This document shows, piece by piece, positions 5,189 through 22,517 of a stretch of DNA of 64,000 bases (position 1 is the stretch's first letter; every line of letters starts with the position of its first letter). The stretch spans positions 7,119,001-7,183,000 of the forward strand of contig NZ_CP054918.1 in the NCBI RefSeq assembly GCF_013364195.1, written 5' to 3'. The notes beneath the pieces were generated by a model that did no database searches, was not told the origin of the DNA, and saw only the letters and a list, made by a program, of their open reading frames with translations. Source of the DNA: Streptomyces sp. NA04227 (lineage in GTDB: Bacteria > Actinomycetota > Actinomycetes > Streptomycetales > Streptomycetaceae). A program made the position numbers and the translations under genes.

Positions 5189-5797
5189 TCACTTCGCGGC
5201 GAGAAACGCCAGCCGGGCTCGCTTCGCGGGCAAGTGGACCTCGGGCAGGTCGATTTCGGGCAGCAGCGCCTCGGGCCCCAGCGTGAAGCCGACCCGGACG
5301 AGCCGCGCCAGGGCCTTCTCGTTCTCGGCGTCGGGTTCGACGACGATACGGCGGTGGGTGCCGCCGACGAGCGTGAAGGCGAGCAGGACCTGCACCAGGG
5401 CGCGGGTGAAGCCGCGTTCCACGCCGCTCGCGGCGGGCGAGATGAGCAGGTGCGCGCCCAGGTCGCCGGGCAGTACCGGGTAGCACGCGCCGACCCGGTC
5501 CGCCGCCGGGTCGTAGGTCTGCAGCAGCGCGACCGGTTCGTCGTCCCGCAGTACCAGGAAGGCGTGGTGGGTGGTGAGGGCGTCCAGGTGTGTGTAGGTC
5601 GCGAGGACCTGTGCGCGGCTGTGTCCGCCCATGCCCCAGAAACGCGCGCGCTCGGCGGTGACCCAGGCGTGCAGGACGTCCAGGTCCGCGGCGGGGTCGA
5701 CGGCCCGGACCTGGAACTGGCCGTATCCGTCGATCTGTTGGGTGTGGAGAGCCGGGCGGGACGCGGCGGATGTGCCCGAGGGGGTTTGCGAGGTCAT
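5189..5797 (-). CDS. GNAT acetyltransferase with its own internal start (alternative reading of the fused frame)
   Basis: Inside the long acylase frame an ATG at 5797 is preceded by AAGGAGAC at ideal spacing. It would give a free 202-residue protein beginning MTSQTPSGTSAASRP. Its body (FQVRAVDP, FWGMGGHSRAQVLATYTH, GTHRRIVVEPDAENEKALARL) matches the acyl-CoA N-acyltransferase fold of siderophore-biosynthesis acetylases (AlcB/IucB type, which acylate N-hydroxylated amines). The strong ribosome site suggests an originally separate cistron whose upstream neighbour lost its stop codon. I list it separately because fused and free forms may both exist. Confidence 0.5.
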   Translation of the reverse strand: MTSQTPSGTSAASRPALHTQQIDGYGQFQVRAVDPAADLDVLHAWVTAERARFWGMGGHSRAQVLATYTHLDALTTHHAFLVLRDDEPVALLQTYDPAADRVGACYPVLPGDLGAHLLISPAASGVERGFTRALVQVLLAFTLVGGTHRRIVVEPDAENEKALARLVRVGFTLGPEALLPEIDLPEVHLPAKRARLAFLAAK

Positions 5798-8230
5798 ATG
5801 AAGTCTCCTTGCGGCGACGGGAGTTGAACTGCTGGTGCTGGTGCTGGTGCTGGTGCTGGTGCTGGTGCTGGTGAGAGGTGCTTTGCGGGGCGATCTGTGG
5901 GGTGAGTTGCGCGGGGAGGGGAGAAGGGCCGAGAGGGTGGGGGAGTGTCGGCCCGTGGTGGTTGCCGTCGGTGCGGTGTGGGGCGGCGGGTGGGGAGGCC
6001 GCGGCTCGGGGGAGGGCAGGGGCGTGGCGGGGGCCGAGGAAGTCAGGCGTGACCAGTCGCTGATCACGGGAAGCAGGCCGCCTGTGGCCCAGAGCGGCAA
6101 CTGGTCGCGGTGATGGGGGTTTTGGGGCACTCCGGAGGCGCCGAGCGGGACGATCCAGAGACTGTTGTCGCGGTCGGCCAGGTCCCAGACATAGCGGGCG
6201 GCTGAGGAACGGGCGCTCAGATGTGTGACCCCGGGGAGACTGGAGGTGGACAGTACGCACTCCAGGTCGCCGGAGAGCCCCGGCCACTCCTCCTCGCCGC
6301 CGGGCAACGCCCGCCAGGGAGCGAGACGGTGGGCCTCGCCCCAGCGCTCCGGGCCACGGTCCTTTGCCGCGCCCTCCGCTGCCGCCTCCTCAAGTGCCGT
6401 ACGGACGAGAGAAGTTGGCTCCAGATCGGGGACTGCGCCGTCGGCGAGCAGGGCTTCCAGGGCGAAGGCGATACGGGTGGTGAGGTCCAGCCAGGGCCGG
6501 AACACCGGTGGCAGTTCGCTCGGTCCGGCCAGTGGGGCGAACCAGGGGTGACGGGCGAGCCGGCGCACGGCCGCCGCCCGCAGCCGCGCGTACGCCATGG
6601 CCTCGGCGCTCTCCGCGTCCATGCGCCGGTTCCAGCCGAGCAGCCGGTCGCGCAGTGCCGAGGCGAGCGGGCTCAGCGCGGGGCCCTCTCCGCCGAGCGC
6701 GCCGAGGAGCCGCAAGAGGGCGTTGTCGTAAGGGAGTTGGGTGTCCGTGTGGATCTCCGCCATGTCCTGCGGTGACCACCGCTCCCGGCGGGCGAGGAGG
6801 GTGCGGATGCGTTCGGCCCGGTGCGGCGGGGCGAAGTCGACCCCGAACGGCGCCGCGATGCCCCGCTCGTTCGCCATCACCGCGCTGCCGCGCACCTCGC
6901 CACGCGGCAGCGGCACGTGCCACCCCCGCCAGGCGTACCGCGACTCCCAAGCCGGTACCGGCACAAGGGAGTTGAGACGGTCGCGCCGAGGCACACGGCC
7001 CGCGACCCGGTGCAGCAGACCGCCCTCGGAGTCGGCCGCCTGCACCACGTTCACCGGTTCCGCCCAGCCGTCGAGAGCGCGGTCGACGTCGCCGACGGTC
7101 CGTGCGGCGAGCAGCGCGGGCAGACAGCCGAAGCCGAGGTCACCGGTGATCCGGGGCGGGCACCGCAGGCTCACGGCCTCGGTGAGTACGTACCCGTCCT
7201 CCCCGGCCCCGTCTTCCCCCGCTCCGTCTTCCCCTGCTCCGTCTGCTGCTTCGGGTCCGTCTCCTGCTCCGGCGCCGGGTCGGCTTTCGGCTCCGGGCCC
7301 GTCCGCCGGCCACGTCACGGCATCGATCACCACCGGCCCGCGGTCGGTCTCGATCACCTCGATGTCGACCGGCTCGGCACCGGCGACGTACACGGTCTCC
7401 CGGTGCGCCCGGGCGGGACGCCAGCCGTCCGGTCCAAGGGCCTCGGTCCGGTGGCCGCGGCGGCGCAGGTGTTCGCGGTACAGGTCCTGGTAGTCGGCCA
7501 TGGCGTTGGTGACGGACCAGGCGACCGAGCCCGTGTGCCCGAAGTGGGCGAGGCCCGGCACTCCGGGTACGGCGAAGCCGACCACGTCGTACTCGGGGCA
7601 GGCCAGGTGGATCTGCTGGTAGACGCCGGGGTCCTCGATGAAGCGGTGCGGGTCGCCCGCGAGGAGGGGGCGGCCGGAGACCGTCCGGCCGGGGGCGAGC
7701 AGCCAGCCGTTGCTGCCGGAGGTGGCGGGGCCCTCGGAGGTGAAGAGTTCCGGGTAGCGGGAGCCGAGGCGGTGGGCGACCTCGGCCCGCCACAGCTTGG
7801 AGGGGAAGCCGGAGAACAGGATGTGGGTGGAGAGCCAGACGCCGAGGGGGACCCAGCTTCCCCACGGCTCGGGACGGATCCCCGCGCGGGCGAACTCCGG
7901 TGCGCCGCCCGCTCCTTGGGCGAGCCCGGCGTTCACCCCTTCGACATAGGAATCCAGCCAGTCCGCGGTCTTAGGGTCCTGCGCCCGCAGTCGGTCGAGG
8001 CAGCGCCGCGCGGTGTCCTCCAGGCGCGCTCTGCGGGCGAACACGTCCCAGTCCTGGGCCTGTTCGCCGAGGAAGGCCGCGCTGGTGCCCTGGACGCGAT
8101 GGCGCTCGACCTCGATCTGCCAGCCGCGGTCCTCGGCCGCGTTGTACCCCTGGGCGAAGGCGAGCTCCCGCGCGCTGTCCGCCTTCAGGTGCGGTATGCC
8201 CCACTCGTCCCGCACGATCGCGCTGCCCAT
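5189..8230 (-). CDS. Penicillin-acylase-family Ntn hydrolase in one open frame with a GNAT acetyltransferase
   Basis: One 1013-codon frame. Residues 1 to about 735 are a cytoplasmic-type penicillin acylase (VRDEWGIPHLKADS near the start, no signal peptide). The autocatalytic cleavage and nucleophile site is SGSNGWLLAPGRT with Ser173, followed by LLAGDPH. Residues about 740-810 are a low-complexity Pro/Ser/Thr linker ending in seven Thr-Ser pairs. Residues 811-1013 are an IucB/RhbD-like GNAT domain (FWGMGGHSRAQVLATY). The ATG at 8230 has GGGGGGAC upstream and diverges from the siderophore reductase gene across an iron box, so iron repression is likely. Acylases and GNATs beside siderophore genes suggest trimming or acylation of hydroxamate siderophores; that is inference. 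The acylase may instead be translated alone and the GNAT from its own start. Confidence 0.75.
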   Translation of the reverse strand: MGSAIVRDEWGIPHLKADSARELAFAQGYNAAEDRGWQIEVERHRVQGTSAAFLGEQAQDWDVFARRARLEDTARRCLDRLRAQDPKTADWLDSYVEGVNAGLAQGAGGAPEFARAGIRPEPWGSWVPLGVWLSTHILFSGFPSKLWRAEVAHRLGSRYPELFTSEGPATSGSNGWLLAPGRTVSGRPLLAGDPHRFIEDPGVYQQIHLACPEYDVVGFAVPGVPGLAHFGHTGSVAWSVTNAMADYQDLYREHLRRRGHRTEALGPDGWRPARAHRETVYVAGAEPVDIEVIETDRGPVVIDAVTWPADGPGAESRPGAGAGDGPEAADGAGEDGAGEDGAGEDGYVLTEAVSLRCPPRITGDLGFGCLPALLAARTVGDVDRALDGWAEPVNVVQAADSEGGLLHRVAGRVPRRDRLNSLVPVPAWESRYAWRGWHVPLPRGEVRGSAVMANERGIAAPFGVDFAPPHRAERIRTLLARRERWSPQDMAEIHTDTQLPYDNALLRLLGALGGEGPALSPLASALRDRLLGWNRRMDAESAEAMAYARLRAAAVRRLARHPWFAPLAGPSELPPVFRPWLDLTTRIAFALEALLADGAVPDLEPTSLVRTALEEAAAEGAAKDRGPERWGEAHRLAPWRALPGGEEEWPGLSGDLECVLSTSSLPGVTHLSARSSAARYVWDLADRDNSLWIVPLGASGVPQNPHHRDQLPLWATGGLLPVISDWSRLTSSAPATPLPSPEPRPPHPPPHTAPTATTTGRHSPTLSALLPSPRNSPHRSPRKAPLTSTSTSTSTSTSTSSSTPVAARRLHMTSQTPSGTSAASRPALHTQQIDGYGQFQVRAVDPAADLDVLHAWVTAERARFWGMGGHSRAQVLATYTHLDALTTHHAFLVLRDDEPVALLQTYDPAADRVGACYPVLPGDLGAHLLISPAASGVERGFTRALVQVLLAFTLVGGTHRRIVVEPDAENEKALARLVRVGFTLGPEALLPEIDLPEVHLPAKRARLAFLAAK
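5831..5872. repeat. Seven perfect GCTGGT hexanucleotide repeats encoding (Thr-Ser)7
   Basis: Seven uninterrupted copies of GCTGGT (ACCAGC on the coding minus strand) lie in the linker between the acylase and GNAT parts. The six-base unit keeps the frame whatever the copy number, so slippage would change linker length without breaking translation. Confidence 0.9.
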
Positions 8231-8322: not shown

Positions 8323-9051
8323 ATGGGGCACGGTTGGGAGGGCGCGGTCCTCAAGTTGATGCGGGGCAAGGACTTCGCCTTCACGGTGACGGGCAGCGAG
8401 CAGATCACCGAGAACTATCTGCGGCTGCACTTCATCGACGGCGGCATGCTGCGCGCCACCGGGGTGCACCCCACGATGTGGGTGCGCCTGTGGTTCCGTC
8501 ACGAGGGGAAGCCGCATCAGCGGGCCTACACCCTGGTCGATCCGGACGCCGCCGCGGGCACGTTCAGCCTGGAGTTCGCCCTGCACGACGGTCCGGCGGC
8601 GAACTGGGCCCGGGCCGCGAAGGAGGGCGACCGTATCGAGGCGACGGTGCAGGGGACCGGGTTCACGGCGCCCGAACCGAGGCCCGAGCGGATGTTCGTG
8701 ATCGGCGATCCGGCCTCACTGCCCGCCATCAACTCCCTGCTCGCCTCGCTGGACGGCACTCCGGCCACCATCTGGTTCGAGACGCCGGAGGACTCCGACC
8801 GCGAACTGCCGTTCCGCGTCGACCCCGTTCAGCACGAGCTGCATCACGTGGAACGCAAGGACGACGGCGCCCACCTGGTCAGCACCGTCAAGGCGGCCCT
8901 GCCCTCGCTCCTGGCGGACCCCGCGAACGCGTATGTCTGGATCGCCTGCGACGCGACCACCACGCGCACCCTCACCGGCTACGTCCGCAAGGAACTCGGC
9001 GTCCCCAAGCAGCGAGTGAACGCACTCGGCTACTGGCGCGCCGCCGCCTGA
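8323..9051 (+). CDS. Siderophore-interacting protein, FAD-dependent ferric-siderophore reductase
   Basis: A 242-residue ViuB/SIP-family flavoprotein that releases iron from imported ferric siderophores by reduction in the cytoplasm. The N-terminal barrel carries the FAD-contacting signature HQRAYTLVDPD (Arg67, Tyr69, Thr70). The C-terminal NAD(P)H-binding half contains FVIGDPASLPAINSLL and WIACDATTTRTL and ends in RVNALGYWRAAA, typical of the family. GAGGAG lies 9 bases before the ATG. The iron box directly upstream and the divergent acylase/GNAT gene suggest induction in iron starvation, perhaps with a desferrioxamine system encoded elsewhere. Confidence 0.9.
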   Translation: MGHGWEGAVLKLMRGKDFAFTVTGSEQITENYLRLHFIDGGMLRATGVHPTMWVRLWFRHEGKPHQRAYTLVDPDAAAGTFSLEFALHDGPAANWARAAKEGDRIEATVQGTGFTAPEPRPERMFVIGDPASLPAINSLLASLDGTPATIWFETPEDSDRELPFRVDPVQHELHHVERKDDGAHLVSTVKAALPSLLADPANAYVWIACDATTTRTLTGYVRKELGVPKQRVNALGYWRAAA

Positions 9052-9439: not shown

Positions 9440-10294
9440 ATGGAATTCGCCATACTAGGATCTCTGCGTGTTACTGAGCAAGGGGCGTCGTATGCGCCAA
9501 CGGCCCCGAAACAGCGGCAGCTACTCGCGCTGCTGATCATGAGGGTCAATCAAGTGGTGTCCTGCGATCAGTGCATCGACGAACTCTGGGGCGGCGTTCC
9601 GCCGAACAGTGCCCTTCCGACGCTGCACTCGTACGTCCTGCAGTTACGTCGTCGCCTCAGACACGCGCCGAGCGCGTCCGCTCCCCAGGATGCCCGCCGC
9701 ATTCTGGAGACCAGGGGTGGCGGGTACTCGCTGGTCGCGGGGGACGAGCAGTTGGACCTCAAGAGTTTCCTCCGGCTCGCGCGTGAGGGGCGGGCGGCGC
9801 TGCATCACAACGACGCGCTGGCCTCGGACAAGCTCTCCGAGGCGCTGGACCTCTGGCACGGCCCGGGCCTGTCCGACGTACCGCACGGCCCCCTGCTGCG
9901 AAACCACGTACTCGCCCTCGAAGAGGAACGGGTCACCTTGCAGCAACAGCGCATCGGCGCCGACCTGCGCCTTGGCCGGCATCACCAACTTCTAGGTGAA
10001 CTACGCGGGTTGAGCGCCGAGCACGTGACCCAGGAAGGGCTGCACGCACAGTTCGTGCTGGCCCTCTACCGGTCGGGCCGCCGTACCCAGGCGCTGGCCG
10101 TGCTGCACGGACTGCGACAGGTCATGCGCAATGACTTCGGTCTGGATCTCTCGCCGCGGATGCACCGCCTGCACCAGGCGGTGCTCGCCTGCGACCCGTC
10201 CATCAGCGTCCTCGCGCAGACGGACGCCGTCCTTGTCAGTGAGGTGGGCCGGACCGACCTGGGACCCAGGACCGCGGACGCGGCCGCCGTGTAG
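9440..10294 (+). CDS. SARP-family transcriptional activator with a TTA codon
   Basis: A 284-residue Streptomyces antibiotic regulatory protein. Residues 1-95 form the OmpR-like winged helix (MEFAILGSLRVTEQG, KQRQLLALLIMRVNQVVS, LHSYVLQLRRRL); residues about 100-255 are the bacterial transcriptional activation domain of TPR-like helices (DLWHGPGLSDVP, HAQFVLALYRSGRRTQALAVL). Codon 69 (9644-9646) is TTA, the rare leucine codon read by bldA tRNA, so translation should depend on development. The gene is monocistronic, with a strong terminator behind it, and sits 466 bp ahead of the anthranilate operon it probably activates. The 5' codons are less GC-rich than in its neighbours. Confidence 0.9.
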   Translation: MEFAILGSLRVTEQGASYAPTAPKQRQLLALLIMRVNQVVSCDQCIDELWGGVPPNSALPTLHSYVLQLRRRLRHAPSASAPQDARRILETRGGGYSLVAGDEQLDLKSFLRLAREGRAALHHNDALASDKLSEALDLWHGPGLSDVPHGPLLRNHVLALEEERVTLQQQRIGADLRLGRHHQLLGELRGLSAEHVTQEGLHAQFVLALYRSGRRTQALAVLHGLRQVMRNDFGLDLSPRMHRLHQAVLACDPSISVLAQTDAVLVSEVGRTDLGPRTADAAAV

Positions 10295-10442
10295 CTCGTT
10301 CACTCTCCCGTGCGCTCTCACCTCCTCGGCGCGCGGAGAACCCGACAACGGTGGCTGATTTCCCACCAGAATGACTGGCCGGTCAATAGCGGTTGCAGTG
10401 TTTGAACACCAATGGTTACGGCGCGTGCGTGCGCGATTGATA

Positions 10443-10481
10443 CCCCCGGTGCTGCCCCGGCAGTGCCGGGGGTTGTTTTTT
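10443..10481 (+). terminator. Strong rho-independent terminator of the SARP gene
   Basis: A 12-bp stem (CCCCCGGTGCTG pairing with CAGTGCCGGGGG, two G-U pairs, tiny loop) at 10443-10472 is followed by TTGTTTTTTG. It separates the SARP transcript from the biosynthetic operon, which therefore needs its own promoter. Confidence 0.88.
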
Positions 10482-10596
10482 GTGAGACGGCCTGGTGTTC
10501 CGATAGAGGATCTCTGATGAGCCTTTGACTCACCGAATCGGCGCGGAACAGGATGACGTCACCTCAGGGCAGAACCTGCTGCGCTGTCTGGTCCTT

Positions 10597-10625
10597 GAAT
10601 GCCCGTTCGGCGATACCGGGCATTC
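10597..10625. other. 9-bp hairpin in the leader of the anthranilate operon
   Basis: GAATGCCCG (10597-10605) and CGGGCATTC (10617-10625) are perfect arms around an 11-nt loop, 20 bp before the tandem repeats. No T-tract follows. It could be a leader hairpin or an operator. A TGACGTCA palindrome lies about 40 bp further upstream, at 10554-10561. Confidence 0.4.
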
Positions 10626-10644
10626 GTTATCGGGGAGCCGCACG

Positions 10645-10728
10645 ATTCAGCACTCGATTCAGCACTCGCTTCAGCAGTTGATTCAGTACTCGCTTCAGCG
10701 CTCAATTCGGCGCGCGATTCGGCACTTG
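10645..10728 (+). repeat. Seven tandem 12-bp direct repeats, candidate SARP operator
   Basis: Seven uninterrupted 12-base units: ATTCAGCACTCG twice, then CTTCAGCAGTTG, ATTCAGTACTCG, CTTCAGCGCTCA, ATTCGGCGCGCG and ATTCGGCACTTG. Conserved positions are TTC(A/G)G in each unit. The array ends 32 bp before the operon's first start codon, and a SARP gene lies just upstream; SARPs bind spaced direct heptamers near -35. Known SARP sites repeat every 11 bp, whereas these repeat every 12, so the assignment is tentative. Confidence 0.6.
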
Positions 10729-10760
10729 AGCTCGTCCATGAGCATCGGAGAGGTCGACCA

Positions 10761-12452
10761 ATGACGGCAGCCTTACCGCACAGAGCCCCGCTCACCGCGC
10801 ATCAGGACACGTTCGTACTCGACAACATGCCGACGTTGTCGGAGCAGCCCGAATTCCGCTACACCCTGCCCGAACTCCAGTACCCGGAGCGGGTCAACTG
10901 CGTCACGTCCTTCGTCGACCGCTGGGCGGCCGAGGGCGACGCCGCCGCGCGCACCGCCGTCCTGTCCTCGGACGGCACCACCTGGTCCTACCGGGACCTG
11001 GGTGAGGCGGTCTCCCGTATCGCCCATGTGCTCACCGACGACTTGGGTCTGGTCCCCGGCAACCGGGTCATGCTGCGCGGCACCAACAGCCCGGTACTCG
11101 CGGCGGCTTGGCTGGCCGTGATCAGGGCCGGCGGTGTGGTCATCACCTCGCTGCCGCTGCTGCGGGCGAAGGAGATCACGTACGTCCTCGACAAGGCGAA
11201 CGTCGACCTGATCCTGTGCGAGGAGGCACTCGCCGAGGAGCTGAACCTGGCGCTGAAGGACCGTCCGGTGGCGGAACAACCGCGGCTGATGTTCTACGGG
11301 GGTGCGCCGGGCGCCGGTCTCCAGGCGGCGATGGCCCGCAAGCCGACGTCCTTCGCACCCGTCGACACGGTCCGCACCGACCCGTGTCTGATCGCCTTCA
11401 CCTCCGGGACCACGAGCGTGCCCAAGGCCACCGTGCACACCCACCGGGACGTGCTGGCGATCTGCAACACCTTCCCGCGCCGGATGCTCGACGTCCGCGA
11501 GAGCGACCGGTTCATCGGCTCGCCGCTGCTCGGATTCACCTACGGTCTCGGCGGGCTGCTCCTGTTCCCGCTGTACTACGGGGCTTCGACGGTGCTGCTG
11601 CACCACGGATCGCCGAAGATCATGGCGGGCGCCATCGCGGAACACGGTGCCACCATCTGCTTCAGCGGCCCCACCGCGTACCGCATGATCGCGGCCGACG
11701 TTCCCGACGCGGACCTGTCCTCGCTGCGTGCCTGTGTCTCCGCGGGGGAGGCGCTGCCGGTGGCCACCCGTGCGATGTGGCGCGAGAAGACGGGCATCGA
11801 CCTGATCGACGGCATCGGCGCCACCGAGCTGCTGCACATCTTCCTCACCATGCCGGGCTCGGAGGCCCGGGAGCGCCCCGGTGCTCTGGGCCGCCCGTTG
11901 CCCGGATACCAGGCCGTGGTCCTCGGCGAGGACGGCGAGCCCGTACCGCCCGGACACGTGGGACGCCTCGCGGTGAAGGGCCCGACCGGTTGCCGCTACC
12001 TCGCCGACGAGCGGCAGCGGGACTGGGTCAAGGACGGCTGGAACCTCACCGGCGACTCGGGCTGGACCGACGAGGACGGTTACTTCCACTACCACGCGCG
12101 CTCCGACGACATGATCGTCTCCGCGGGCTACAACATCTCGCCGGTCGAGGTCGAGGACGCGCTGCTCGCCCACCACGGTGTGCGGGACTGCGCGGCGATC
12201 GGGGTGCCCGACGAGGAACGCGGCGCGATCGTCAAGGCGTTCGTGGTCCTGGCCGAGGGCTTCACCCCCGGCGACGAAACGGCCCGCGAGTTGCAGCGGT
12301 TCGTGAAGGACCACATCGCGCCCTACAAGTACCCGCGGGCCATCGAGTTCCGCACCGAACTGCCGCGCGGGGACACCGGAAAGCTCCGCCGTTTCGTACT
12401 GCGTGAATCCGAGGAAGAGCAGAGGAGTGTGATGCCCCATGTCACCAAATGA
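10761..12452 (+). CDS. 2-Aminobenzoate-CoA-ligase-like acyl-CoA synthetase
   Basis: A 563-residue ANL-superfamily enzyme that should activate an aromatic acid with ATP and transfer it to CoA. The P-loop is FTSGTTSVPKATVHT (the usual TG is TS); the adenylate motif is DGIGATELLHIF; the hinge region is YHARSDDMIVSAGYNISPVEVE; and the catalytic Lys lies in LPRGDTGKLRR. Its overall pattern (SPLLGFTYGLGGLLLFPLYYGA) resembles benzoate/2-aminobenzoate-CoA ligases. With an anthranilate synthase in the same operon, anthranilate is the likely substrate. I chose the ATG at 10761 (GGAGAGG upstream); the frame is open further up, through the 12-bp repeats, which would add DSAL-like peptide repeats. Its end overlaps the thioesterase start. 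Confidence 0.85.
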   Translation: MTAALPHRAPLTAHQDTFVLDNMPTLSEQPEFRYTLPELQYPERVNCVTSFVDRWAAEGDAAARTAVLSSDGTTWSYRDLGEAVSRIAHVLTDDLGLVPGNRVMLRGTNSPVLAAAWLAVIRAGGVVITSLPLLRAKEITYVLDKANVDLILCEEALAEELNLALKDRPVAEQPRLMFYGGAPGAGLQAAMARKPTSFAPVDTVRTDPCLIAFTSGTTSVPKATVHTHRDVLAICNTFPRRMLDVRESDRFIGSPLLGFTYGLGGLLLFPLYYGASTVLLHHGSPKIMAGAIAEHGATICFSGPTAYRMIAADVPDADLSSLRACVSAGEALPVATRAMWREKTGIDLIDGIGATELLHIFLTMPGSEARERPGALGRPLPGYQAVVLGEDGEPVPPGHVGRLAVKGPTGCRYLADERQRDWVKDGWNLTGDSGWTDEDGYFHYHARSDDMIVSAGYNISPVEVEDALLAHHGVRDCAAIGVPDEERGAIVKAFVVLAEGFTPGDETARELQRFVKDHIAPYKYPRAIEFRTELPRGDTGKLRRFVLRESEEEQRSVMPHVTK

Positions 12453-12999
12453 GCCTTCACCGAATGAGTATTCACCAGATGAGGCGTCTTCGGGCCCACC
12501 GTCGTCGACCGATGGTCCGGCGAGTCGACCGCCGCTCGGTGAACCGCCGTCGGGGCCCTACTCCGTGGATCGGCTGATTCGGTTCCAGCACTGCGACCCG
12601 GCGGGAATCGTCTTCTACCCGCAGTACCTGTTCATGCTCAACGAGGTGCTCGAGGACTGGTTCGAGGAGCACCTCGGAATCGACTACGCGGGAATGTTCA
12701 CCACGCGCCGGATCGGTATTCCCACCATCCGGCTGGAGTGCGACTTCGTGGGTCCGAGCCGGGTCGGTGACCGGGTGCGTTTCTCCCTGGATCTGCGTCG
12801 CATCGGAAAGTCCTCGTTCGAACTCCACTACCTGTGCGCGGGGGTGGAGAAGAGCGATGTGCGCGTGCGCATGCGCGCGGTGCTCGTCTTCATGTCCCTG
12901 ACCTCGCACACCTCCGTGCCGGTCCCCGAGGACATCCGCGCCGCGATGGAGCGGTGCCTGAACCCCGCCACCGACCCGTCCGCCGACGGTGCCCGATGA
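12439..12999 (+). CDS. Hotdog-fold (4-hydroxybenzoyl-CoA thioesterase-like) acyl-CoA thioesterase
   Basis: A 186-residue protein. Residues about 45-175 form a 4HBT domain with the diagnostic active-site stretch FQHCDPAGIVFYPQYLF, where the Asp is the catalytic carboxylate, and VLEDWFEEHLGIDYAG. It would hydrolyse an aryl-CoA thioester, possibly anthraniloyl-CoA or a derivative, or proofread the ligase. The first 40 residues are a disordered Ser/Pro/Glu extension with repeats (SPNEPSPNEYSPDE), longer than in normal 4HBT enzymes; a start nearer residue 38 cannot be excluded. It overlaps the upstream ligase by 14 bases. Confidence 0.82.
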   Translation: MSPNEPSPNEYSPDEASSGPPSSTDGPASRPPLGEPPSGPYSVDRLIRFQHCDPAGIVFYPQYLFMLNEVLEDWFEEHLGIDYAGMFTTRRIGIPTIRLECDFVGPSRVGDRVRFSLDLRRIGKSSFELHYLCAGVEKSDVRVRMRAVLVFMSLTSHTSVPVPEDIRAAMERCLNPATDPSADGAR

Positions 13000-13016
13000 C
13001 CAAGGAGAACGCGACT

Positions 13017-14579
13017 GTGACCACCCGACTCCTCGGCAACGAACAGCTCGGTGCCGGCAACGCCTTCCCCTTGGCCTGCGCCGACGAGGAGCTCGCGCGG
13101 AGCGTGGTGCTCGAACTCGACCGGTCCTACACCGACCACGAGGGCAGGCTCCACGACTCCCTGACGCTGCCCCAGCTCGACCGGATCACCGATGCCCTCG
13201 CCGCCGGGTACTGGCGGGACGGAATCCGGCCCAAGGACCCCGTCGCCGTCTTCCTCGAGGAGAGCGTGCGCTACCTCGTCCACTACGTGGCGCTGAACAA
13301 GATCGGTGCGATACCCGTCCTGCTCAACAGCCTGATGCCGTCCGACCTCGGGCAGAAGTTCATCACCCGCGTCGGCGCCGTCGCGGTGGTCTCGGACCGT
13401 ACCCGTATCCCCACCGGCTTCGAGGGGCCGCGGTTCTACGAGAACGACCCGTTCGGCGAAGGGGAGTTCCGGCGCTTCGTGCACACGGAGAACGACCCCG
13501 TCCTCATCGCGCACACCTCCGGCACCACGGGTGTCCCGAAGGCCGTCCAGTTCAACCACGGGGGCTTCTTCTTCGGCATCCGTCAGCAGATCGGGGCGGA
13601 CCTCGGCGAGCGCATCCTCTCCGTACTGCCGCAGAGCCACGGCTCGGCCATCTCCGTACTGATGTCGGCAGTGGTGCGCGGCAGCAAGGTGCTGCTCGCC
13701 ACCCAGCGCGGCGCGAGTGCGCTCGCCGACTCCATCGAGCGGTTCCGCCCCAACCTGGTCGCCGCGTTCCCCAAGACCTTCGTCGACCTGTGCCGACTCG
13801 ACCTGGACGCCAGGGACTTCGACTCGGTGGCCCGCTGGATGTGCACCGGGGACGCCAACCACGAGCAGCACATCCGCAAACTGGTCCGCCAGGGTACGCA
13901 CATCGACCGCGAGGGCAGGAAGCAGAGCGGCTCGCTGTTCATCGACAACTTCGGCTCCTCCGAGTTCGGCTTCGCGATGTTCCGTACGATCCACACCCCG
14001 ACCAGCAACCGCTACGGACGCTGTATCGGCCGCCCCTTCGGCTGGATCGACGTCGAGCTCTTCGACGACAACGACGAGCCCGTCGGCCCCCGTACCGTCG
14101 GCCGCCTCGCCCTCAAGTCCCCGACCGTGACCTCCGGTTACTGGAACAACACCCTGCTCAGCGAGAAGAACAGGGTGCGCGGCTACTGGCTGACCGGTGA
14201 CGTCGCCTACCGGGACGAGGACGGCCTCTACTACCACATGGACCGCACCGTCGACTACATCACCACCGGGGACGGCGCCGTCTACAGCGCCCAGTGCGAG
14301 GAACTGATCCTCGCTCGCTTCCCCGAGGTCTTCGACTGCTCCCTGGTGGCCGTCGCCCAGGCGTCCGAGGGCACCGAGGCACCGCTGGTGCTCACCGCGG
14401 ACCTCGCCGAGCAGGCCGTGGACACCGAGGACCTGCTGCAGCGGATCAACGAGGCTCTCGGTGAGAAGGGCCTGCCGAAGATCCGGACCATCCGGACCGA
14501 AGGTTTGGGCGAGCACGTCGGCCTCACCGGCAAGTCCCTCAAACGCACCATGCGCGACGCCCTGGCCGACCAGGTCTGA
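13017..14579 (+). CDS. Second AMP-forming acyl-CoA synthetase/adenylating ligase
   Basis: A 520-residue ANL enzyme clearly different from the first. The P-loop is HTSGTTGVPKAVQFN, A5 is DNFGSSEFGF, the A7-like region is YWLTGDVAYRDEDG, and the C-terminal catalytic Lys is in LTGKSLKRTMRD. The substrate is unknown; it may activate the partner acid that is joined to the anthranilate unit, or load a carrier protein encoded elsewhere. I chose the GTG at 13017 because AAGGAG ends 10 bases before it; an ATG at 12996 overlapping the thioesterase stop (ATGA) is an equally coupled alternative, adding seven residues. Confidence 0.8.
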   Translation: MTTRLLGNEQLGAGNAFPLACADEELARSVVLELDRSYTDHEGRLHDSLTLPQLDRITDALAAGYWRDGIRPKDPVAVFLEESVRYLVHYVALNKIGAIPVLLNSLMPSDLGQKFITRVGAVAVVSDRTRIPTGFEGPRFYENDPFGEGEFRRFVHTENDPVLIAHTSGTTGVPKAVQFNHGGFFFGIRQQIGADLGERILSVLPQSHGSAISVLMSAVVRGSKVLLATQRGASALADSIERFRPNLVAAFPKTFVDLCRLDLDARDFDSVARWMCTGDANHEQHIRKLVRQGTHIDREGRKQSGSLFIDNFGSSEFGFAMFRTIHTPTSNRYGRCIGRPFGWIDVELFDDNDEPVGPRTVGRLALKSPTVTSGYWNNTLLSEKNRVRGYWLTGDVAYRDEDGLYYHMDRTVDYITTGDGAVYSAQCEELILARFPEVFDCSLVAVAQASEGTEAPLVLTADLAEQAVDTEDLLQRINEALGEKGLPKIRTIRTEGLGEHVGLTGKSLKRTMRDALADQV

Positions 14580-14597
14580 GCCCGGCAACTTTGGACA

Positions 14598-16904
14598 GTG
14601 GGGGGAAAGTTGAAGTCGCTGACGAGCACTGGGCACGTCGGGCTCGATCCGCGTGGTGCGACGTCGCGGTGGCGTACCGCCGCGGGCGTCGAGGTGAGGC
14701 GCGAGACACGGCAGTGGGAGACCGACGCCGCCACCGCCCGACGGGAACTGGAACTGGCCCTCGACGAGCGGCGCGGCATGCTGCGGATGCGGGGTGCCGG
14801 ACGGGCCGTGGGCTATGTCGACCCGCCGCTGGAAGTGAGCGTCCGCGGTCGGCTGCTGACCGTGCGTGCCCTCAACGCACGCGGCCGGGTGCTGCTGCCC
14901 GCGTTGCGCCCGGCGCTGGAGAAGTCCCTGCTGCGGGTGGTCTGTTCGGTCGAGGAGGTGCGGGGGCAGGCGCCGCCGCCCGGGGAGGACTTCGCCGAGG
15001 AGGACCGCACTCGGCACGCGGGCGTCTTCACGGCACTGCGCGGGCTCGTCGCGGCGCTCGCCACCCGCGAGGACACGCTCCTTGGCCTGTACGGCGCCTT
15101 CGGCTACGACCTCATCTTCCAGATGGAGCAGATCGAAACGCACCAGCGCCGAGGCCCGGACGACCGCGATCTGGTGCTCCATCTGCCCGACGAGATCCTG
15201 GAGTTCGACCTCGTCGGCGGCCGAGCGCTGCGCCACCGCTACGAGTTCCGAACCCAGGACGAGGACACCGAGGGGCTGCCGCGCGAGGGCGAGGCGCTGC
15301 CCTTCGTCCCAGGCACCCCCGACTCCGCACGCGACCACGCGCCGGGGGAGTATGCCGAGGTGGTGCGGCGGGCCATGCCGCACTTCACCGCCGGTGACCT
15401 CTTCGAGGTGGTGCCGGGCCAGTCCTTCAGACGGGCCTGCGCCGAAGCGCCGTCCACGGTCTTTCGCCGCCTGTGGGAGACCAACCCCGCTCCGTACAGC
15501 CTGCTGATGAACCTCGGCGAGGGCGAGTATCTGGTCGGAGCCTCGCCGGAGATGTTCGTACGGGTACGCGGCGACGGTGCGCCCGGCGCCGAACGCCTGA
15601 TGGTGCAGACCTCCCCGATCAGCGGCACCATCGCCCGGGGCCGGGACGCGCTGGAGGACGCCGCCCACATCCGCCGGCTCCTGGACTCCGTCAAGGAGGA
15701 GTCCGAACTCACCATGTGCACCGACGTCGACCGCAACGACAAGGCGCGGGTGTGCGTTCCGGGCAGCGTGCGGATCACCGGGCGACGGCAGATCGAGCTG
15801 TACTCCGCACTGATCCACACGGTGGACCGGGTGGAGGGCGAGATCGCACCGGGCCGGGACGCGCTGGACGGTTTCCTGGCCCATCTGTGGGCCGTCACCG
15901 TCACGGGTGCGCCCAAGATCGCCGCGGTGGAGTTCCTGGAGCGCGCGGAGCGCTCGCCGCGACGCTGGTACGGCGGCGCCGTCGGCAGCATCGGCTTCGA
16001 CGGCGGTCTCGACACGGTGCTGACCCTGCGCACCATCCAGCTGCGCGACGGAGTGGCCACGGTACGTGCGGGCGCGACACTGCTGCACGACTCGGTCCCC
16101 GAGGCCGAGGAGGCCGAGACCGAACTCAAGGCCAAGGCCCTGCTACGGGTCCTCGACCCGCAGCGACCTCCGCTCCCCGAGCTCTCGGCTCCGGTCGAGC
16201 GAAGGGACCCCGACGAGCAAGGGGTGCCCCATGGGGCACCGCTCGCTCCCCGGCGTGTGGGCGAAGGACTGCGCATCCTGCTCGTCGACCACCGCGACTC
16301 CTTCGTCAACTGCCTCGCGGACTATCTGCGGCAGACCGGTGCCTCGGTGGGCACCTACCGCAGCGGGCGGCATCTGCCGGTCATCGAGCGGGAACGTCCC
16401 GATCTGCTCGTCCTGTCACCGGGGCCCGGCCGCCCCGCCGACTTCGCGCTGCACGAGACGCTGGACCTCGCCGAGAAGTGCGAACTGCCCGTCTTCGGCG
16501 TGTGTTTGGGGCTGCAGGGTCTGGTGGAGTACTTCGGTGGTGACCTCGGCGTCATGAAGGAGCCGATGCACGGCAAGCCCTCCCGGGTGCACGTCACCGA
16601 CGAAAGCTCCGCGCTGCTCACCGGGCTGCCGAGAACCTTCGAGGTCGGCCGCTACCACTCGCTGTACGCCAGACCCGAGGCGCTGCCCGAGCAGCTGCGG
16701 GTCACCCTGATCACCGACGACGGCATCCCGATGGCCGTGGAGCACACCGAACGCCCGCTGGCCGCCGTGCAGTTCCACCCCGAGTCCCTGCTGACCCTGG
16801 CCGGGGCGGTCGGGCAGACCGTGATCGACAACGCGGTCTCCGCCCTCGCCCGCCGTCCCGGGACGACCCGTGGAGAGCCGTCGTGCCCGGTTCGGACTCG
16901 CTGA
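14598..16904 (+). CDS. Fused anthranilate synthase (TrpE-TrpG), specialised-metabolism copy
   Basis: A 768-residue fusion converting chorismate and glutamine to anthranilate. The chorismate-utilising domain spans about residues 30-510 (GLYGAFGYDLIFQ, SPISGTIARG, ELTMCTDVDRNDKARVC, VTGAPKIAA). A linker precedes the glutamine amidotransferase (about 555-755) with nucleophile Cys in FGVCLGLQGL and His in QFHPES. The layout is that of rhizobial-type TrpE(G). The serine- and tyrosine-rich segment that follows ALDERRG in those enzymes and belongs to the tryptophan-sensing pocket is replaced by a short MLRMRGAG stretch, suggesting relaxed feedback. A PhzE-like 2-amino-2-deoxyisochorismate synthase is the main alternative. 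GTG 14598 is assumed; TTG 14610 has a better-placed purine run. Confidence 0.85.
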   Translation: MGGKLKSLTSTGHVGLDPRGATSRWRTAAGVEVRRETRQWETDAATARRELELALDERRGMLRMRGAGRAVGYVDPPLEVSVRGRLLTVRALNARGRVLLPALRPALEKSLLRVVCSVEEVRGQAPPPGEDFAEEDRTRHAGVFTALRGLVAALATREDTLLGLYGAFGYDLIFQMEQIETHQRRGPDDRDLVLHLPDEILEFDLVGGRALRHRYEFRTQDEDTEGLPREGEALPFVPGTPDSARDHAPGEYAEVVRRAMPHFTAGDLFEVVPGQSFRRACAEAPSTVFRRLWETNPAPYSLLMNLGEGEYLVGASPEMFVRVRGDGAPGAERLMVQTSPISGTIARGRDALEDAAHIRRLLDSVKEESELTMCTDVDRNDKARVCVPGSVRITGRRQIELYSALIHTVDRVEGEIAPGRDALDGFLAHLWAVTVTGAPKIAAVEFLERAERSPRRWYGGAVGSIGFDGGLDTVLTLRTIQLRDGVATVRAGATLLHDSVPEAEEAETELKAKALLRVLDPQRPPLPELSAPVERRDPDEQGVPHGAPLAPRRVGEGLRILLVDHRDSFVNCLADYLRQTGASVGTYRSGRHLPVIERERPDLLVLSPGPGRPADFALHETLDLAEKCELPVFGVCLGLQGLVEYFGGDLGVMKEPMHGKPSRVHVTDESSALLTGLPRTFEVGRYHSLYARPEALPEQLRVTLITDDGIPMAVEHTERPLAAVQFHPESLLTLAGAVGQTVIDNAVSALARRPGTTRGEPSCPVRTR

Positions 16905-18499
16905 GCGCACCGGGCACCGCCGCCCGTTCCGGGCCCGCGCCGTCCGGGGGATCCGGGGCCACCGGATCCCCCGGGGCCGCGCCGCGCGGGCAGCGGCGGC
17001 GCGCGGTCCTGGCGCTGATGTGTATCTGCGCGATCGTCATCCAGTCGCTCGTCGCCGCGATCAACCTCGCGATCGCGGCGATCTCGGCGAGCGGCCTGAA
17101 GCCGAGCTCCACCGAGATGCTGTGGATCGTCGACGCGTATGTCATCGTCTTCGCCAGCCTGCTCATCCCGGCCGGGGCACTCGGTGACCGCTGCGGTCGC
17201 AAGGGCGTACTGCTCACCGGCGTCGGCGTGTTCGGCGTCGGCGCACTGATCAGCGCCCTGGCCACCGACGTGCCCGTACTCATCGCGGGCCGCGGCCTGG
17301 CCGGTGCGGGCGCGGCGCTGGCGATGCCCGCCTCGCTCTCGCTGCTCGTGCACGCCACACCGGCCGAGCGACGGCCCTCGGCGATCGCCAGTTGGAGCGC
17401 CTCGGTCGCCCTGGGTGGCATCGTCGGCAACGCGGGCGGCGCCGTCGTCCTCCAGACGCTGCCCTGGCAGGGCCTGTTCTGGTGCTACGTGCCCGCGAGT
17501 GCGCTGCTGCTCGTCGTGGTCGCCCTCCTCGCACCCCGGCCACCACGCGGTACGGCCGCACTGGACCTCGTCGGCACGCTGCTGCTCGTATCCGGCCTGG
17601 TGCTGCTGCTGTTCGGCATCATCGAGGGCCCCGAGCGCGGCTGGGACTCACCCGTGGTCCTGGTCGCCCTCGCCGCGACGGCCGCCCTGCTCACCGTGTT
17701 CATCCGCTACGAACTGCGCGCCGCGCACCCGCTCCTGGACCCCAGGCTGCTCAAACTGCCCGCGGTGCGGGCCGGTTCCCTCGGTGTCGCGGCCGCCTTC
17801 TTCGGCATGTTCGCGCTGTTCTTCGTCAACGCGCAGTTCCTCCAGTACGTGAAGGGCTACTCGCCACTGCGCGCCGGTTTCGCGATCGTCCCCATGGCCG
17901 TGGGGATGGGCATCGTCACCCAGGCCAGTGTGGGCTGGGCGCGGCGCTTCGGATCGCGGGCCGTCGTCGGCACCGGGCTGCTGCTCCTGGTGGCCGGTCT
18001 GCTGCTGCTCTCGACCGCGACCGGAGAAACCTCCTATCCCGTGTACACCACCTACCTCATGCTGCTGGGGCTGGGCTCGGGCCTCACCATGCCTCCCCTC
18101 TCCGCGGGTCTGCTCGCCGCGCTGCCCGGACCCCGCGCCGGGATGGGCTCGGGACTCAACGCCGCCGCCCGCGAGTTGGGCGCCGCGCTGGGCATCGCCT
18201 GTGTCGGCACCGTGCTCAGCGCACAGTTCACCGACCGGCTGCCGGGGGCCCTCGCCGGTCACGACCACTCCGCCTCCCAGGCTCTGCGGGCGGCGGCAGC
18301 GGGCGGCGACCGGCTGCACACCGCGGCGCTGGACAGCTTCACCCGCGCCGTGGCGGTCGGCTACCAGGTCACCGCGGCAGTGCTCTTCGTCCTCTCCCTG
18401 CTGGTGCTCTTCTGGCATCCGGCGGGGGCGTCAACCGGCGTACGTGGTGAGGCGGTTGGGCCGGAAGGCCACGGTGGGCGGGACAGTCCGGGTGGCTGA
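16883..18499 (+). CDS. MFS drug-efflux transporter, DHA2 family (14 helices)
   Basis: A 538-residue membrane protein with about 14 hydrophobic segments. Motif A is GALGDRCGRKG; motif C is SVALGGIVGNAGGAVV; the DHA2-specific long loop EGPERGWDSP is present. Such proton antiporters export antibiotics, and as last gene of the anthranilate operon this one probably exports the product and gives self-resistance. The GTG start lies within the last 22 bases of the anthranilate synthase gene. The N-terminal 35 residues are a disordered Gly/Pro-rich tail. Its stop codon is the first element of the left copy of a 104-bp inverted repeat. Confidence 0.88.
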   Translation: MPGSDSLSAPGTAARSGPAPSGGSGATGSPGAAPRGQRRRAVLALMCICAIVIQSLVAAINLAIAAISASGLKPSSTEMLWIVDAYVIVFASLLIPAGALGDRCGRKGVLLTGVGVFGVGALISALATDVPVLIAGRGLAGAGAALAMPASLSLLVHATPAERRPSAIASWSASVALGGIVGNAGGAVVLQTLPWQGLFWCYVPASALLLVVVALLAPRPPRGTAALDLVGTLLLVSGLVLLLFGIIEGPERGWDSPVVLVALAATAALLTVFIRYELRAAHPLLDPRLLKLPAVRAGSLGVAAAFFGMFALFFVNAQFLQYVKGYSPLRAGFAIVPMAVGMGIVTQASVGWARRFGSRAVVGTGLLLLVAGLLLLSTATGETSYPVYTTYLMLLGLGSGLTMPPLSAGLLAALPGPRAGMGSGLNAAARELGAALGIACVGTVLSAQFTDRLPGALAGHDHSASQALRAAAAGGDRLHTAALDSFTRAVAVGYQVTAAVLFVLSLLVLFWHPAGASTGVRGEAVGPEGHGGRDSPGG

Positions 18500-18631: not shown

Positions 18632-20419
18632 TCAGCCGCTGAAGCAGAAGGCGCGTCCGCTGAAGTCCCAGCATTGGATCTGCTTGCTGGTGGTGGCCGT
18701 GTTGCCTGCCTTGTCGGTCACGGACAGTTCAGCGGTGTAGTTCTTCTGGCCTGCCGGGTAGGAGTGCGTGGCCTTCACTCCGGTGCCGGTCTTTCCGTCG
18801 CCGAACTTCCAGGCGTACGAGGCGATGTCGTTGTCCGTGTCGCGGGACTGCGAGGCGTCGAAGTCACAGGCCTCGTACCAGCAGGAGACGGAGAACGCGG
18901 GGGCGGGCGGCTGGCCGGTGGGGGTGCCCGCCTGGACGGTGTGGGTGACGGTGCCCTTCTTACCGGCGTCGTCGGTCACGGTGAGAGTGACCTCGTAGGA
19001 ACCGGCCTTCTGGTACGTGTGCGTGGGGGTGGCGCCTGTGCCTTCGGTGCTGTCGCCGAAGTTCCAAGCGTAGGAGGCGATCTGTCCGTCGCCGTCCTTG
19101 GAGGCAGAGGCGTCGAAGCTGCAACTCGGCTCGGTGGTCGAGCAGTTCGGAGTGAAGGCAGCGGTGGGTGTGCCGGGGTCGGCGGGCGTGCCGAGCTTGG
19201 TCACGTCCAGGAACTTGTTCGGCGAACCCGAACCGGGGTTGGTGACGACTCCGGACCGGGCGGCGGCGACTACCGCGTCCGTGGCCTCCGTTGCCGAGGC
19301 TCCGGGGTGGGATTCCAGGTACAGGGCCAGGGCCCCGGCGCCGTGCGGCGACGCCATGGAGGTGCCGCTCATGTTCGCGTTGCCCGTGTCGGACTGGTGG
19401 CTCGCGGAGGTGATGTTGCCGCCGGGGCCGAACAGGTCGATGCAGCGGCCGTAGTTGGAGAAGCTGGAGCGGCCGCCGTTCTGGTCGGTCGAGCCCAGGG
19501 TCAGGGCCTCCGGTGTGTCACCGGGGGAGGTGCCGCACGCGTCGGTGCCGCTGTTCCCCGCCGCGACGGCCGCCGGGATGCCCGCTTCGACGGCGCGCTT
19601 GGTGGCGTCCCGCAGACCTTGTGGGTCGGCGCCCGCGCCGCCGGAGGTCAGGCTCATGTTGATGACGGCGGGCTTCTTCGCGTTCTTCACCACCCAGTCC
19701 AGGCCCGCGATGGTGTCGCTGTCGGGGCCGTTGCCCGAGCAGTCAAGGACCCGCACGGCGACCAGGTTCGCCTTCTTGGCGACGCCGTACTCCTTGCCCC
19801 CGACAGTGCCCGCCACATGGGTGCCGTGCCCACTGCAGTCGGCGGCGTCGCTGTCGTCGTCGATGAAGTCGTAGCCGGAGGAGGCCCGGCCCTCGAAGGT
19901 CCGGTGCGAGAAGCGGGTGCCGGTGTCGATGACATAGGCCGTGACTCCGCTGCCGGTGCCTGGGTAGGTGTACGTCTTGTCCTGGGCACCGTCCACCGCG
20001 TCCAGACCCCAGGACGGCGGACTGGGCTGGGTCCCGCCCTCGGCGGCGTGCACCATGAGCGACTGCTGCACGTACTCCACCGCAGGGTCGGCGGCGAGCC
20101 GGGCCGCCTGCCGCTCGGACATCTTCGCGGCGAATCCGCGCAGCACGGCGCTGTAGACATGCTCGCCCGTGCCGCCGTATCGGTCGAGCAACTCACGTGC
20201 CTGGCCCGCGACTTGGTCTTCGGCGGCGAGAGCGGGGGAGGTGCTTCCCTTGAGGGAGACGATGTACTCGCCCTCGATGGCACCGGGGGCACCCGCGTTG
20301 ATCACGGCGCCCTCGCTCGCCTCGGCCGGACCGCCGCTCGCCGTCACCAACGCCGCGGTGGCGGCGAGGGCGGTGAGAGAGGCGGACAGCAGGCGACGGG
20401 TGTGGTGACGGTTGTTCAT
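18632..20419 (-). CDS. Secreted subtilisin-like serine protease (S8) with two C-terminal PKD domains
   Basis: A 595-residue preproenzyme. Residues 1 to about 34 are a signal peptide (RRLLSASLTALAATAALVTA); an I9 inhibitor propeptide follows (GEYIVSLKG, YVQQSLMV). The catalytic domain is proteinase-K-like with Asp165 (VIDTGTRFSH), His198 (DCSGHGTHVAGT) and Ser354 (MSGTSMASPHGAGA). Two PKD domains follow (SYAWNFGDSTEGTGA and SYAWKFGDGKTGTGV), often used to bind insoluble protein or polysaccharide, with extra cysteine pairs. GGAAGG lies before the ATG at 20419. The PKD tail is almost identical in DNA and protein to that of the next gene. It is transcribed in the same direction as, and probably separately from, that gene (182-bp gap). 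Confidence 0.93.
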   Translation of the reverse strand: MNNRHHTRRLLSASLTALAATAALVTASGGPAEASEGAVINAGAPGAIEGEYIVSLKGSTSPALAAEDQVAGQARELLDRYGGTGEHVYSAVLRGFAAKMSERQAARLAADPAVEYVQQSLMVHAAEGGTQPSPPSWGLDAVDGAQDKTYTYPGTGSGVTAYVIDTGTRFSHRTFEGRASSGYDFIDDDSDAADCSGHGTHVAGTVGGKEYGVAKKANLVAVRVLDCSGNGPDSDTIAGLDWVVKNAKKPAVINMSLTSGGAGADPQGLRDATKRAVEAGIPAAVAAGNSGTDACGTSPGDTPEALTLGSTDQNGGRSSFSNYGRCIDLFGPGGNITSASHQSDTGNANMSGTSMASPHGAGALALYLESHPGASATEATDAVVAAARSGVVTNPGSGSPNKFLDVTKLGTPADPGTPTAAFTPNCSTTEPSCSFDASASKDGDGQIASYAWNFGDSTEGTGATPTHTYQKAGSYEVTLTVTDDAGKKGTVTHTVQAGTPTGQPPAPAFSVSCWYEACDFDASQSRDTDNDIASYAWKFGDGKTGTGVKATHSYPAGQKNYTAELSVTDKAGNTATTSKQIQCWDFSGRAFCFSG

Positions 20420-20601
20420 CGGCGGCCTTCCGTCGGATGGCGACGCCACGGTGGCATCGCCGCGGTGGTGGCGTTCTCGGGGTCGGTTCGTCCAGGTGGG
20501 CGAACCAGGGGAAAAGGGAGGGAAGTTGAGGGCGGCTCGGACACCGTGGGAGAGGGTGCGGGCGGGAGGGAGCCGGGTCGCCCGCCCGCACCTGTCCGGG
20601 T

Positions 20602-22107: not shown

Positions 22108-22517
22108 GGCCTGCCTTCCTCTTCCGGGTGAGGGCCTGGACGGCAGGCGCTTTCCGCCAGTTCGGGCCGGGACCCGAGAGGTGGGGTGGGGCGGCGGTGG
22201 GGTGGGGGCGCCTGGTGCCAGGGGAGTCGCTCGGACGTTAGAAGGGCCACGGGGGCCGAACAATCCGCGATGCGATCCGTAGTGCTACTCAAGATTTGCG
22301 GTGGCGCGTGCGGGGATTCCTCGAGTGGGCCACTACGGGCGGTCCGGCGCCGAGGGACGAGTTCCGGCCAGGGCGCGCTCCTCGGGCGGTGGTGCCGCTG
22401 CGCGATGTCTTGCCCGTGACCGCACCTCCAAGTACGTTCACACGTCAATCGCCACAAGGGCGTGGTGACATCGTGCCGCGGGCGGGATCAGGCGTTCCGT
22501 ACGGCTGGGAGCCACAG
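22108..22517. other. 410-bp divergent promoter region between the S1 protease and LAL regulator genes
   Basis: No gene is supported here. An open frame continues leftwards from the regulator (alternative GTG start at 22473, or other starts further upstream), but its product is low-complexity. The region contains G-rich tracts (GGTGGGGTGGGGGCG near 22195) and an AT-richer stretch around 22256-22300 where the protease promoter could be. I see no clear palindromic operator. Confidence 0.4.

Follow-up and report, generated by a model that had tools for sequence, protein, structure and literature searches.

The 64-kb stretch of the Streptomyces sp. NA04227 genome analysed here (the window) contains six genes at positions 9440-18499, all on the + strand, that probably form a SARP-controlled unit for the diazotisation of anthranilate. 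A sequence-only reading, which had given the genes the same positions, proposed an undescribed and dedicated anthranilate-derived cluster free of polyketide synthase (PKS) and non-ribosomal peptide synthetase (NRPS) genes, and no close characterised match to it was found in the open-licence PMC literature searched. The same reading saw a SARP activator, a thioesterase, a dedicated TrpEG and an exporter in one compact unit, which is borne out by Pfam, NCBIfam and the tight gene junctions. Its suggestion of an anthraniloyl product (a small amide or ester, or the free acid) fared less well, as the second ANL enzyme belongs to a nitrite-activating family, and N-N bond chemistry on anthranilate, predicted from the family and modelled fold of that enzyme, is the likelier purpose of the cluster. 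The evidence gathered by comparison comprises the identities of the genes, the family and fold of the diazotase, a cassette conserved in other genomes and the presence of nitrite genes in the operon of one relative.

The second ANL enzyme is of the diazotase family

The sequence-only reading had assigned two adenylating ligases to the cluster. Both are ANL proteins and the first is a coenzyme A (CoA) ligase, but the second, encoded at 12996-14579, belongs by score and by structure to the nitrite-activating diazotase family, and its N-N bond-forming activity is predicted on this basis. Its best NCBIfam model is NF058622, the AvaA6 equivalog, at 386.5 bits, with the runner-up model at 159.6. It scores 324, 292 and 269 bits within the CmaA6/AvaA6/Tri17 subfamily (CmaA6 324, Tri17 292), as against no more than 94 for any acyl-CoA ligase and 76 for McbA; CmaA6 and Tri17 are ahead of these by about 198 bits or more. 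The predicted structure also finds its best full-length match in CmaA6/Tri17, with a margin of about 4 Z units or more over the best CoA ligase, whilst McbA (6sq8) is among the structural neighbours (TM at best about 0.77 relative to the query). Together, the score gap and the structure speak against an amide or acyl ligase identity for this protein.

The enzyme is not an AvaA6 orthologue, given that the cut-off of NF058622 is 975, a value exceeded by P0124 (1074.6) and L023 (1024.7), and it is found within a separate clade of 26 rows, apart from CmaA6 and AvaA6. Many proteins (P0030-P0122), including some from Dyella, Pseudoalteromonas and Rhodobacteraceae, are around 36-50% identical to the window diazotase, and many of these are closer to it than is the AvaA6-type P0124 (38%). 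A GDAxHxxH motif was considered as a signature for the diazotases and dropped, as it is present in only 113 of 137 rows and also appears in an arbitrary frame in one of six other loci.

Conservation of the cassette

Close homologues of the diazotase (E <= 1e-130) were collected from three overlapping draws of 295 genomes (genus), 394 (family) and 392 (genus), with the window genome included. Besides the window's own, they occur in G168 (both genus draws), in G562 and G326 (family draw) and in G626 (392-genome draw), and the cassette diazotase is rare, with one or two other genomes per draw. The cassette of S. gossypii was taken from a separate search. Proteins at least 60% identical to the window diazotase number 17 besides its own, several of which come from the genomes already named.

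The neighbourhoods of these six diazotases (window, S. gossypii, G168, G562, G326 and G626) were read over 20-30 kb each and compared all-against-all. The ligase, the thioesterase and the diazotase, referred to below as the trio, are the only proteins common to all six, with identities of 52-71%, 56-81% and 63-71%, respectively. As a control, 20 kb around the diazotase relative was taken in 19 genomes, out of the 45 others of the 295-genome draw that have such a relative (31-46% identical in that draw, 30-39% at the 19 loci), and none contained a thioesterase match above 50 bits. The sequence-only reading had raised a conserved linkage to primary tryptophan catabolism as grounds for abandoning its proposal; no gene of tryptophan catabolism is common to the neighbourhoods.

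In S. gossypii the ligase, thioesterase, diazotase, TrpEG and MFS genes follow the window order with 70-81% identity, and a 3-deoxy-D-arabino-heptulosonate 7-phosphate (DAHP) synthase gene precedes that for the MFS protein. G326, which represents another genus of the same family, has the same five genes at 62-70% identity, with CreE, CreD and DAHP synthase genes between TrpEG and MFS. As both keep the gene set, the grouping is not due to chance. The DAHP synthase of these two cassettes is of class II, and a 267-aa open reading frame (ORF) of G562 resembles a portion of it at 37% similarity. TrpEG lies beside the cassette in four of the six cases (window, S. gossypii, G562 and G326). The G168 and G626 loci almost duplicate each other, with 85-93% identity across the neighbourhood, and hence the six cases count as about five independent ones.

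Organisation of the locus and its components

The coordinates of the genes are collected in the table. The thioesterase ORF overlaps the 3' end of the ligase gene, and ATG 12996, which overlaps the stop codon of the thioesterase gene as ATGA, is the likely start of the diazotase. Only 18 bases separate the end of the diazotase gene from the start of TrpEG, the end of which is in turn overlapped by the MFS start. With genes that overlap or abut in this way, coupling is plausible. A terminator-like GC hairpin followed by a T run, with its arms at 10442-10473, lies 3' of the SARP gene.

Features of the anthranilate cluster in the window
Position	Strand	Feature	Basis
9440..10294	+	SARP-family activator	PF03704 (123.6 bits), PF00486
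10761..12452 (ORF opens 10599)	+	Aryl-CoA ligase, probably anthranilate-CoA ligase	PF00501 and PF13193
10643..10726	+	Tandem array of CGATTCAGCACT (12 bases, seven copies) in the leader of the ligase	TRF score 91
12439..12999	+	Hotdog acyl-CoA thioesterase, 4HBT type	PF13279
12996..14579	+	Predicted arylamine diazotase using ATP and nitrite (CmaA6/AvaA6/Tri17 family)	ANL protein; NCBIfam, structure
14598..16904	+	TrpEG fusion (anthranilate synthase), for a dedicated supply of anthranilate	NF010081, TIGR01815
16883..18499	+	MFS exporter (predicted)	PF07690

The first ANL protein is probably an anthranilate-CoA ligase, as judged from its best PDB match, the anthranilate-CoA ligase 4wv3 (284.6 bits), with benzoate-CoA ligases next at 255. 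Its best NCBIfam model is the benzoate-CoA ligase TIGR02262 at 329 bits, below the cut-off of 375 for membership of that family. Translation probably begins at 10761 rather than 10599, because the ATG there is preceded by GGAGAGG, which resembles a ribosome-binding site, and because the homologues of S. gossypii and G168 align only from residue 66; that of G326 aligns from residue 45. The thioesterase contains a segment, HCDPAGIVFYPQY, that is identical in all six cassette thioesterases and aligns with CDPAGIVWYP of the 4-hydroxybenzoyl-CoA thioesterase 1bvq. The protein is accordingly of the 4-hydroxybenzoyl-CoA type, with the DPAGI..YP segment kept, a stretch that we take to carry the catalytic Asp.

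The conversion of chorismate to anthranilate by TrpEG is well supported, with scores above both cut-offs for anthranilate synthase (TrpE clade 3, TrpEG fusion; NF010081, 945 against 645; TIGR01815, 896 against 739). Other TrpEG fusions, three in number and sharing 55-62% identity with that of the window, are found on G000:C1 at 3.90-3.92 Mb (L119/L120), 4.54 Mb (L121) and 2.70 Mb (L123), each of them near AMP-binding ligases. An MMPL-family transporter (Pfam) lies near the 2.70 Mb copy, and similar-looking large ORFs are seen by eye at the other two. There are ten chorismate-binding matches in the window genome in all. DAHP synthase has no match in the window, and its genome has three loci for this enzyme elsewhere. 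The MFS protein matches EmrB/DHA2 best among the NCBIfam models, at 183.5 bits and below the cut-off of 230, and is kept in S. gossypii (70% identical) and in G326 (68%).

None of the six genes encodes a ketosynthase, carrier protein, amidohydrolase or anthraniloyl oxygenase by Pfam, and probes for the type II ketosynthase and chain-length factor (KS/CLF) have no match in the 64 kb of the window. The sequence-only reading is wrong about the genes in one detail, in that it took the second ANL enzyme, which is of the diazotase family, for a ligase like the first.

Sources of nitrite

In G326 the genes for nitrite supply are found inside the operon, between TrpEG and the DAHP synthase. The CreE homologue has its best PDB match in 8cp2 (706 bits), which PMC10404684 gives as an aspartate N-hydroxylase, and the CreD homologue scores 764.6 with the nitrosuccinate lyase model NF052556, the cut-off of which is 650. 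CreD homologues are present in four of the six cassette genomes, and the two that were checked are both above this cut-off. In S. gossypii, G168 and G626, CreE and CreD are encoded as a pair at a locus other than the cassette. These three pairs branch with the G326 cassette pair, with bootstrap/SH-aLRT values of 99/98 for CreD and 95/95 for CreE, in small unrooted trees of 12 and 13 sequences, respectively, that include the near-duplicates G168 and G626; other sampled copies, among them a second G326 pair, fall outside the group. This is the grouping that one expects if the four pairs serve the cassette. G326 has two separate CreE-CreD pairs, at L075 (C25, the cassette) and at L111 (C75), and the latter suggests a second nitrite-dependent cluster.

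G562 gave only weak, PurB-level matches to CreD and only a distant one to CreE. In the window genome PF00206 has three matches, which by eye are FumC-, ArgH- and PurB-like with no CreD among them, and no aspartate-nitrosuccinate (ANS) pathway was found in this strain by the PF00206, CreD-probe and CreE-probe searches.

Polyketide genes near the cassette

Polyketide genes lie near the cassette in two of the six genomes, G326 and G562. The G326 contig has genes for an acyltransferase, two ketosynthase-fold proteins and an acyl carrier protein, in a type II PKS arrangement, 21-26 kb beyond the cassette, and the interval contains polyketide cyclase, SnoaL-like and ring-hydroxylase genes together with a SARP gene. 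The G562 cassette is flanked by modular PKS and NRPS genes. The loading ketosynthase of this PKS carries TGQSSS, which is presumably the mark of a KSQ-type loading ketosynthase, and with a loading module of this type by motif an anthranilate starter is not supported; the unit is probably attached to the G562 product rather than used to start it. Two genes from the G562 diazotase is a mycothiol-dependent nitroreductase Rv2466c-like protein (PF22234; L074, 7250-7885), which might protect against a reactive product.

In the window strain's own genome the KS/CLF search was extended to nine more stretches of 20 kb, both flanks of the window included, with the remaining genome not searched, and gave no match; nor did the 38-40 kb read around each CreE-CreD pair in S. 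gossypii, G168 and G626. Around the cassettes of these last three genomes no PKS was seen in the ORF lists, where no dedicated search was made. The earlier idea of a partner locus elsewhere is plausible, with polyketide genes nearby in two of the six genomes and nitrite genes at another locus in three.

Proposed pathway and its alternatives

The pathway would begin with TrpEG, which would provide extra anthranilate from chorismate. The enzyme encoded at 12996-14579 would then use ATP to activate nitrite and pass it on to the amino group of the ring, so that a 2-diazoniobenzoyl species is formed. The aryl-CoA ligase, acting ahead of diazotisation or following it, would attach CoA to anthranilate or to the diazo acid, and the hotdog thioesterase would release the free acid. 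The product may leave through the MFS pump, or may couple non-enzymatically, in a reaction of the Japp-Klingemann or azo type, with a carbon nucleophile, for instance an aromatic polyketide, in which case a 2-hydrazinobenzoate hydrazone would result. The operon leads us to infer anthranilate, free or as the CoA ester, as the substrate, and the order of the steps, the coupling, its partner, control by the SARP and the nitrite source of the window strain are put forward in the same spirit. A broader and distinctly more tentative proposal, which we think possible but doubtful, is that the trio is mobile and, usually with its own TrpEG, acts as the bacterial source of 2-diazoniobenzoate. Working on the CoA thioester, it would keep the unstable diazonium tethered and deliver it to unrelated scaffolds, a type II polyketide in G326 and a modular PKS/NRPS product in G562.

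Several observations weigh against diazotisation of anthranilate as the role of the cluster. The window diazotase is far under the AvaA6 equivalog cut-off (386 against 975), no direct precedent was found for the pairing of a CoA ligase and a thioesterase with a diazotase, and there is no coupling partner near the cassette in the window. The G562 ligase gene lies about 6 kb off, beside TrpEG, with the thioesterase and diazotase genes adjacent there. TrpEG has no match in the 40 kb (G168) and 60 kb (G626) around the cassette, and in these two cases the amine could be another anthranilate-like acid. The window genome contains no CreD (the best hit of the probe, at 1.2e-6, is the PurB-like protein), no CreE homologue by the CreE probe and no respiratory narG above cut-off, and its only candidate nitrite source is a NasC-like nitrate reductase, which scores 789 bits against a cut-off of 1100 and is partial in the stretch read. 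However, 72 of 134 ava-like clusters are also without nitrite genes by the count given in PMC10777205, so the absence of CreE and CreD from the window strain does not exclude function.

A loss of the nitrogen, counted against an N-N product, has also to be considered. Anthranilate or its CoA ester would be diazotised and N2 lost, giving salicylate with water or benzoate with hydride before release by the thioesterase, in a manner likened to the breakdown of 4-chlorobenzoate or to the avenalumate and p-coumarate pathways. Diazonium salts react with water to form phenols, the thioesterase is of the 4HBT type, and in G168 and G626 the trio alone is common with the other loci; moreover, AvaA6 and CmaA6 serve deamination in the pathways outlined in PMC10777205. 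We nevertheless regard this outcome as unlikely. No reductase is common to the neighbourhoods, in which only the trio is found in all six, followed by TrpEG, MFS and DAHP synthase in some (the probes did not include AvaA7, and the reaction with water can proceed without one), TrpEG together with nitrite would be a wasteful source of salicylate when salicylate synthases exist, and the PKS genes near two of the six cassettes suggest a building block.

Two further possibilities were weighed. Anthraniloyl-CoA might be converted to anthranilamide, which the diazotase would nitrosate and which would close to 1,2,3-benzotriazin-4-one. This would account for a carboxyl-activating ligase alongside a diazotase, and diazotised anthranilamides are known to close rings spontaneously, but no further enzyme able to form the amide is common to the six neighbourhoods and no natural benzotriazinone is evident among the best 15 of 408 literature matches, so that we give this variant little chance. 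It is more improbable still that both ANL enzymes are carboxylate ligases, or that the second is an McbA-type amide synthetase, yielding an anthraniloyl amide or ester. Membership of the ANL proteins and the position of McbA among the structural neighbours speak for it; the lead of CmaA6/Tri17 over the best CoA ligase and McbA in bits, and over the best CoA ligase in Z units, speaks against it, as do the nitrite genes inside the G326 operon.

Relationship to known systems

The CmaA6 and AvaA6 diazotases of the p-coumarate and avenalumate clusters belong to the same ANL subfamily by sequence and fold, and nitrite-dependent diazotisation of arylamines, which is theirs, is predicted for the window enzyme. 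Unlike the ava and cma clusters, the present unit has TrpEG, an aryl-CoA ligase and a thioesterase, lacks KS/CLF and carrier proteins, and has no 3-amino-4-hydroxybenzoate (3,4-AHBA) genes among the six. A ligase, a dehalogenase and a thioesterase carry out the breakdown of 4-chlorobenzoate, and its operons resemble the trio in having an aryl-CoA ligase and a 4HBT-type thioesterase around a step at a ring substituent; the present unit has a diazotase in place of the dehalogenase and a biosynthetic setting. The ketosynthase, carrier protein, amidohydrolase and anthraniloyl oxygenase of quinolone, benzoxazole and antimycin-type anthranilate clusters are absent from the six genes. No report of an anthranilate diazotase was found in the literature searched.

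Closer in chemistry are the tasikamide aha cluster, in which Aha11 is associated with an alkyl 5-hydroxyanthranilate, and the penzonemycin pzm cluster, with 3-hydroxyanthranilate. Accounts in PMC11705231 and PMC9323291 have a diazotised anthranilate derivative forming the tasikamide hydrazone by Japp-Klingemann coupling, and propose the same coupling for penzonemycin. The pzm cluster, like the cassette, includes an anthranilate synthase and a DAHP synthase, the latter as in S. gossypii and G326. Both clusters differ from the present unit in their hydroxylated or alkylated anthranilates and their CreE/CreD homologues, and pzm also has an isochorismatase, an N-acetyltransferase and oxidases. The aha and pzm systems were compared by description, with the sequences of Aha11, CreM and Pzm18 outside the comparison.

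Katorazone and murayaquinone C are Streptomyces aromatic polyketides described as bearing a 2-hydrazinobenzoate hydrazone (PMC9225364, PMC13266690), the unit predicted from 2-diazoniobenzoate, and the G326 cassette shares its contig with a type II PKS. A link between the cassette and these compounds is a proposal resting on that gene arrangement. The route put forward in PMC13266690 and PMC9225364 is condensation of (methyl) 2-hydrazinobenzoate or N-aminoanthranilic acid with a carbonyl, and not diazonium coupling, and the N-aminoanthranilate proposal is repeated in PMC12843350. No gene cluster for the hydrazine half of either compound was found in the open-licence literature searched, and the murayaquinone expression study PMC6295570 gave no match for hydrazine or anthranilate terms. 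For a Streptomyces acetylhydrazone, the cluster as presented in PMC9686526 is without N-N genes.

Regulation and neighbouring genes

The window SARP is 60% identical over 265 aa to the SARP of G326 that is encoded in the interval from the cassette to the type II PKS genes. With the ligase starting at 10761, the 12-base repeats belong to its leader and not to the protein, and they are a possible SARP operator. As a conserved operator they were rejected, the array being absent, at the other five cassette loci, from the 700 bases that precede the conserved core of the ligase.

Elsewhere in the window, a 1013-aa ORF at 5189-8230 combines a penicillin-amidase domain with a C-terminal Acetyltransf_8 (GNAT) domain and adjoins a siderophore-interacting (SIP) protein gene at 8323-9051. 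The proteins encoded at 18632-20644 (subtilase and PKD domains, Pfam) and 20602-22263 (trypsin-like, by eye) are nearly identical in their C-terminal part.

Implications

To our knowledge, few enzymes make N-N bonds, and fewer still form aryldiazonium species. As far as the search extended, an unsubstituted anthranilate as substrate, a ligase/thioesterase pair tied to a diazotase, and a single cassette that occurs close to a type II PKS, close to a modular PKS/NRPS and alone would all be new. The 2-hydrazinobenzoate unit has been proposed as a cryptic natural product and a chemical cue in PMC9225364, and the cluster makes its origin directly testable. If the proposal for the trio is true, it would explain how katorazone and murayaquinone C come by their N-aminoanthranilate unit. 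More generally, annotations of "acyl-CoA ligase" may conceal diazotases.

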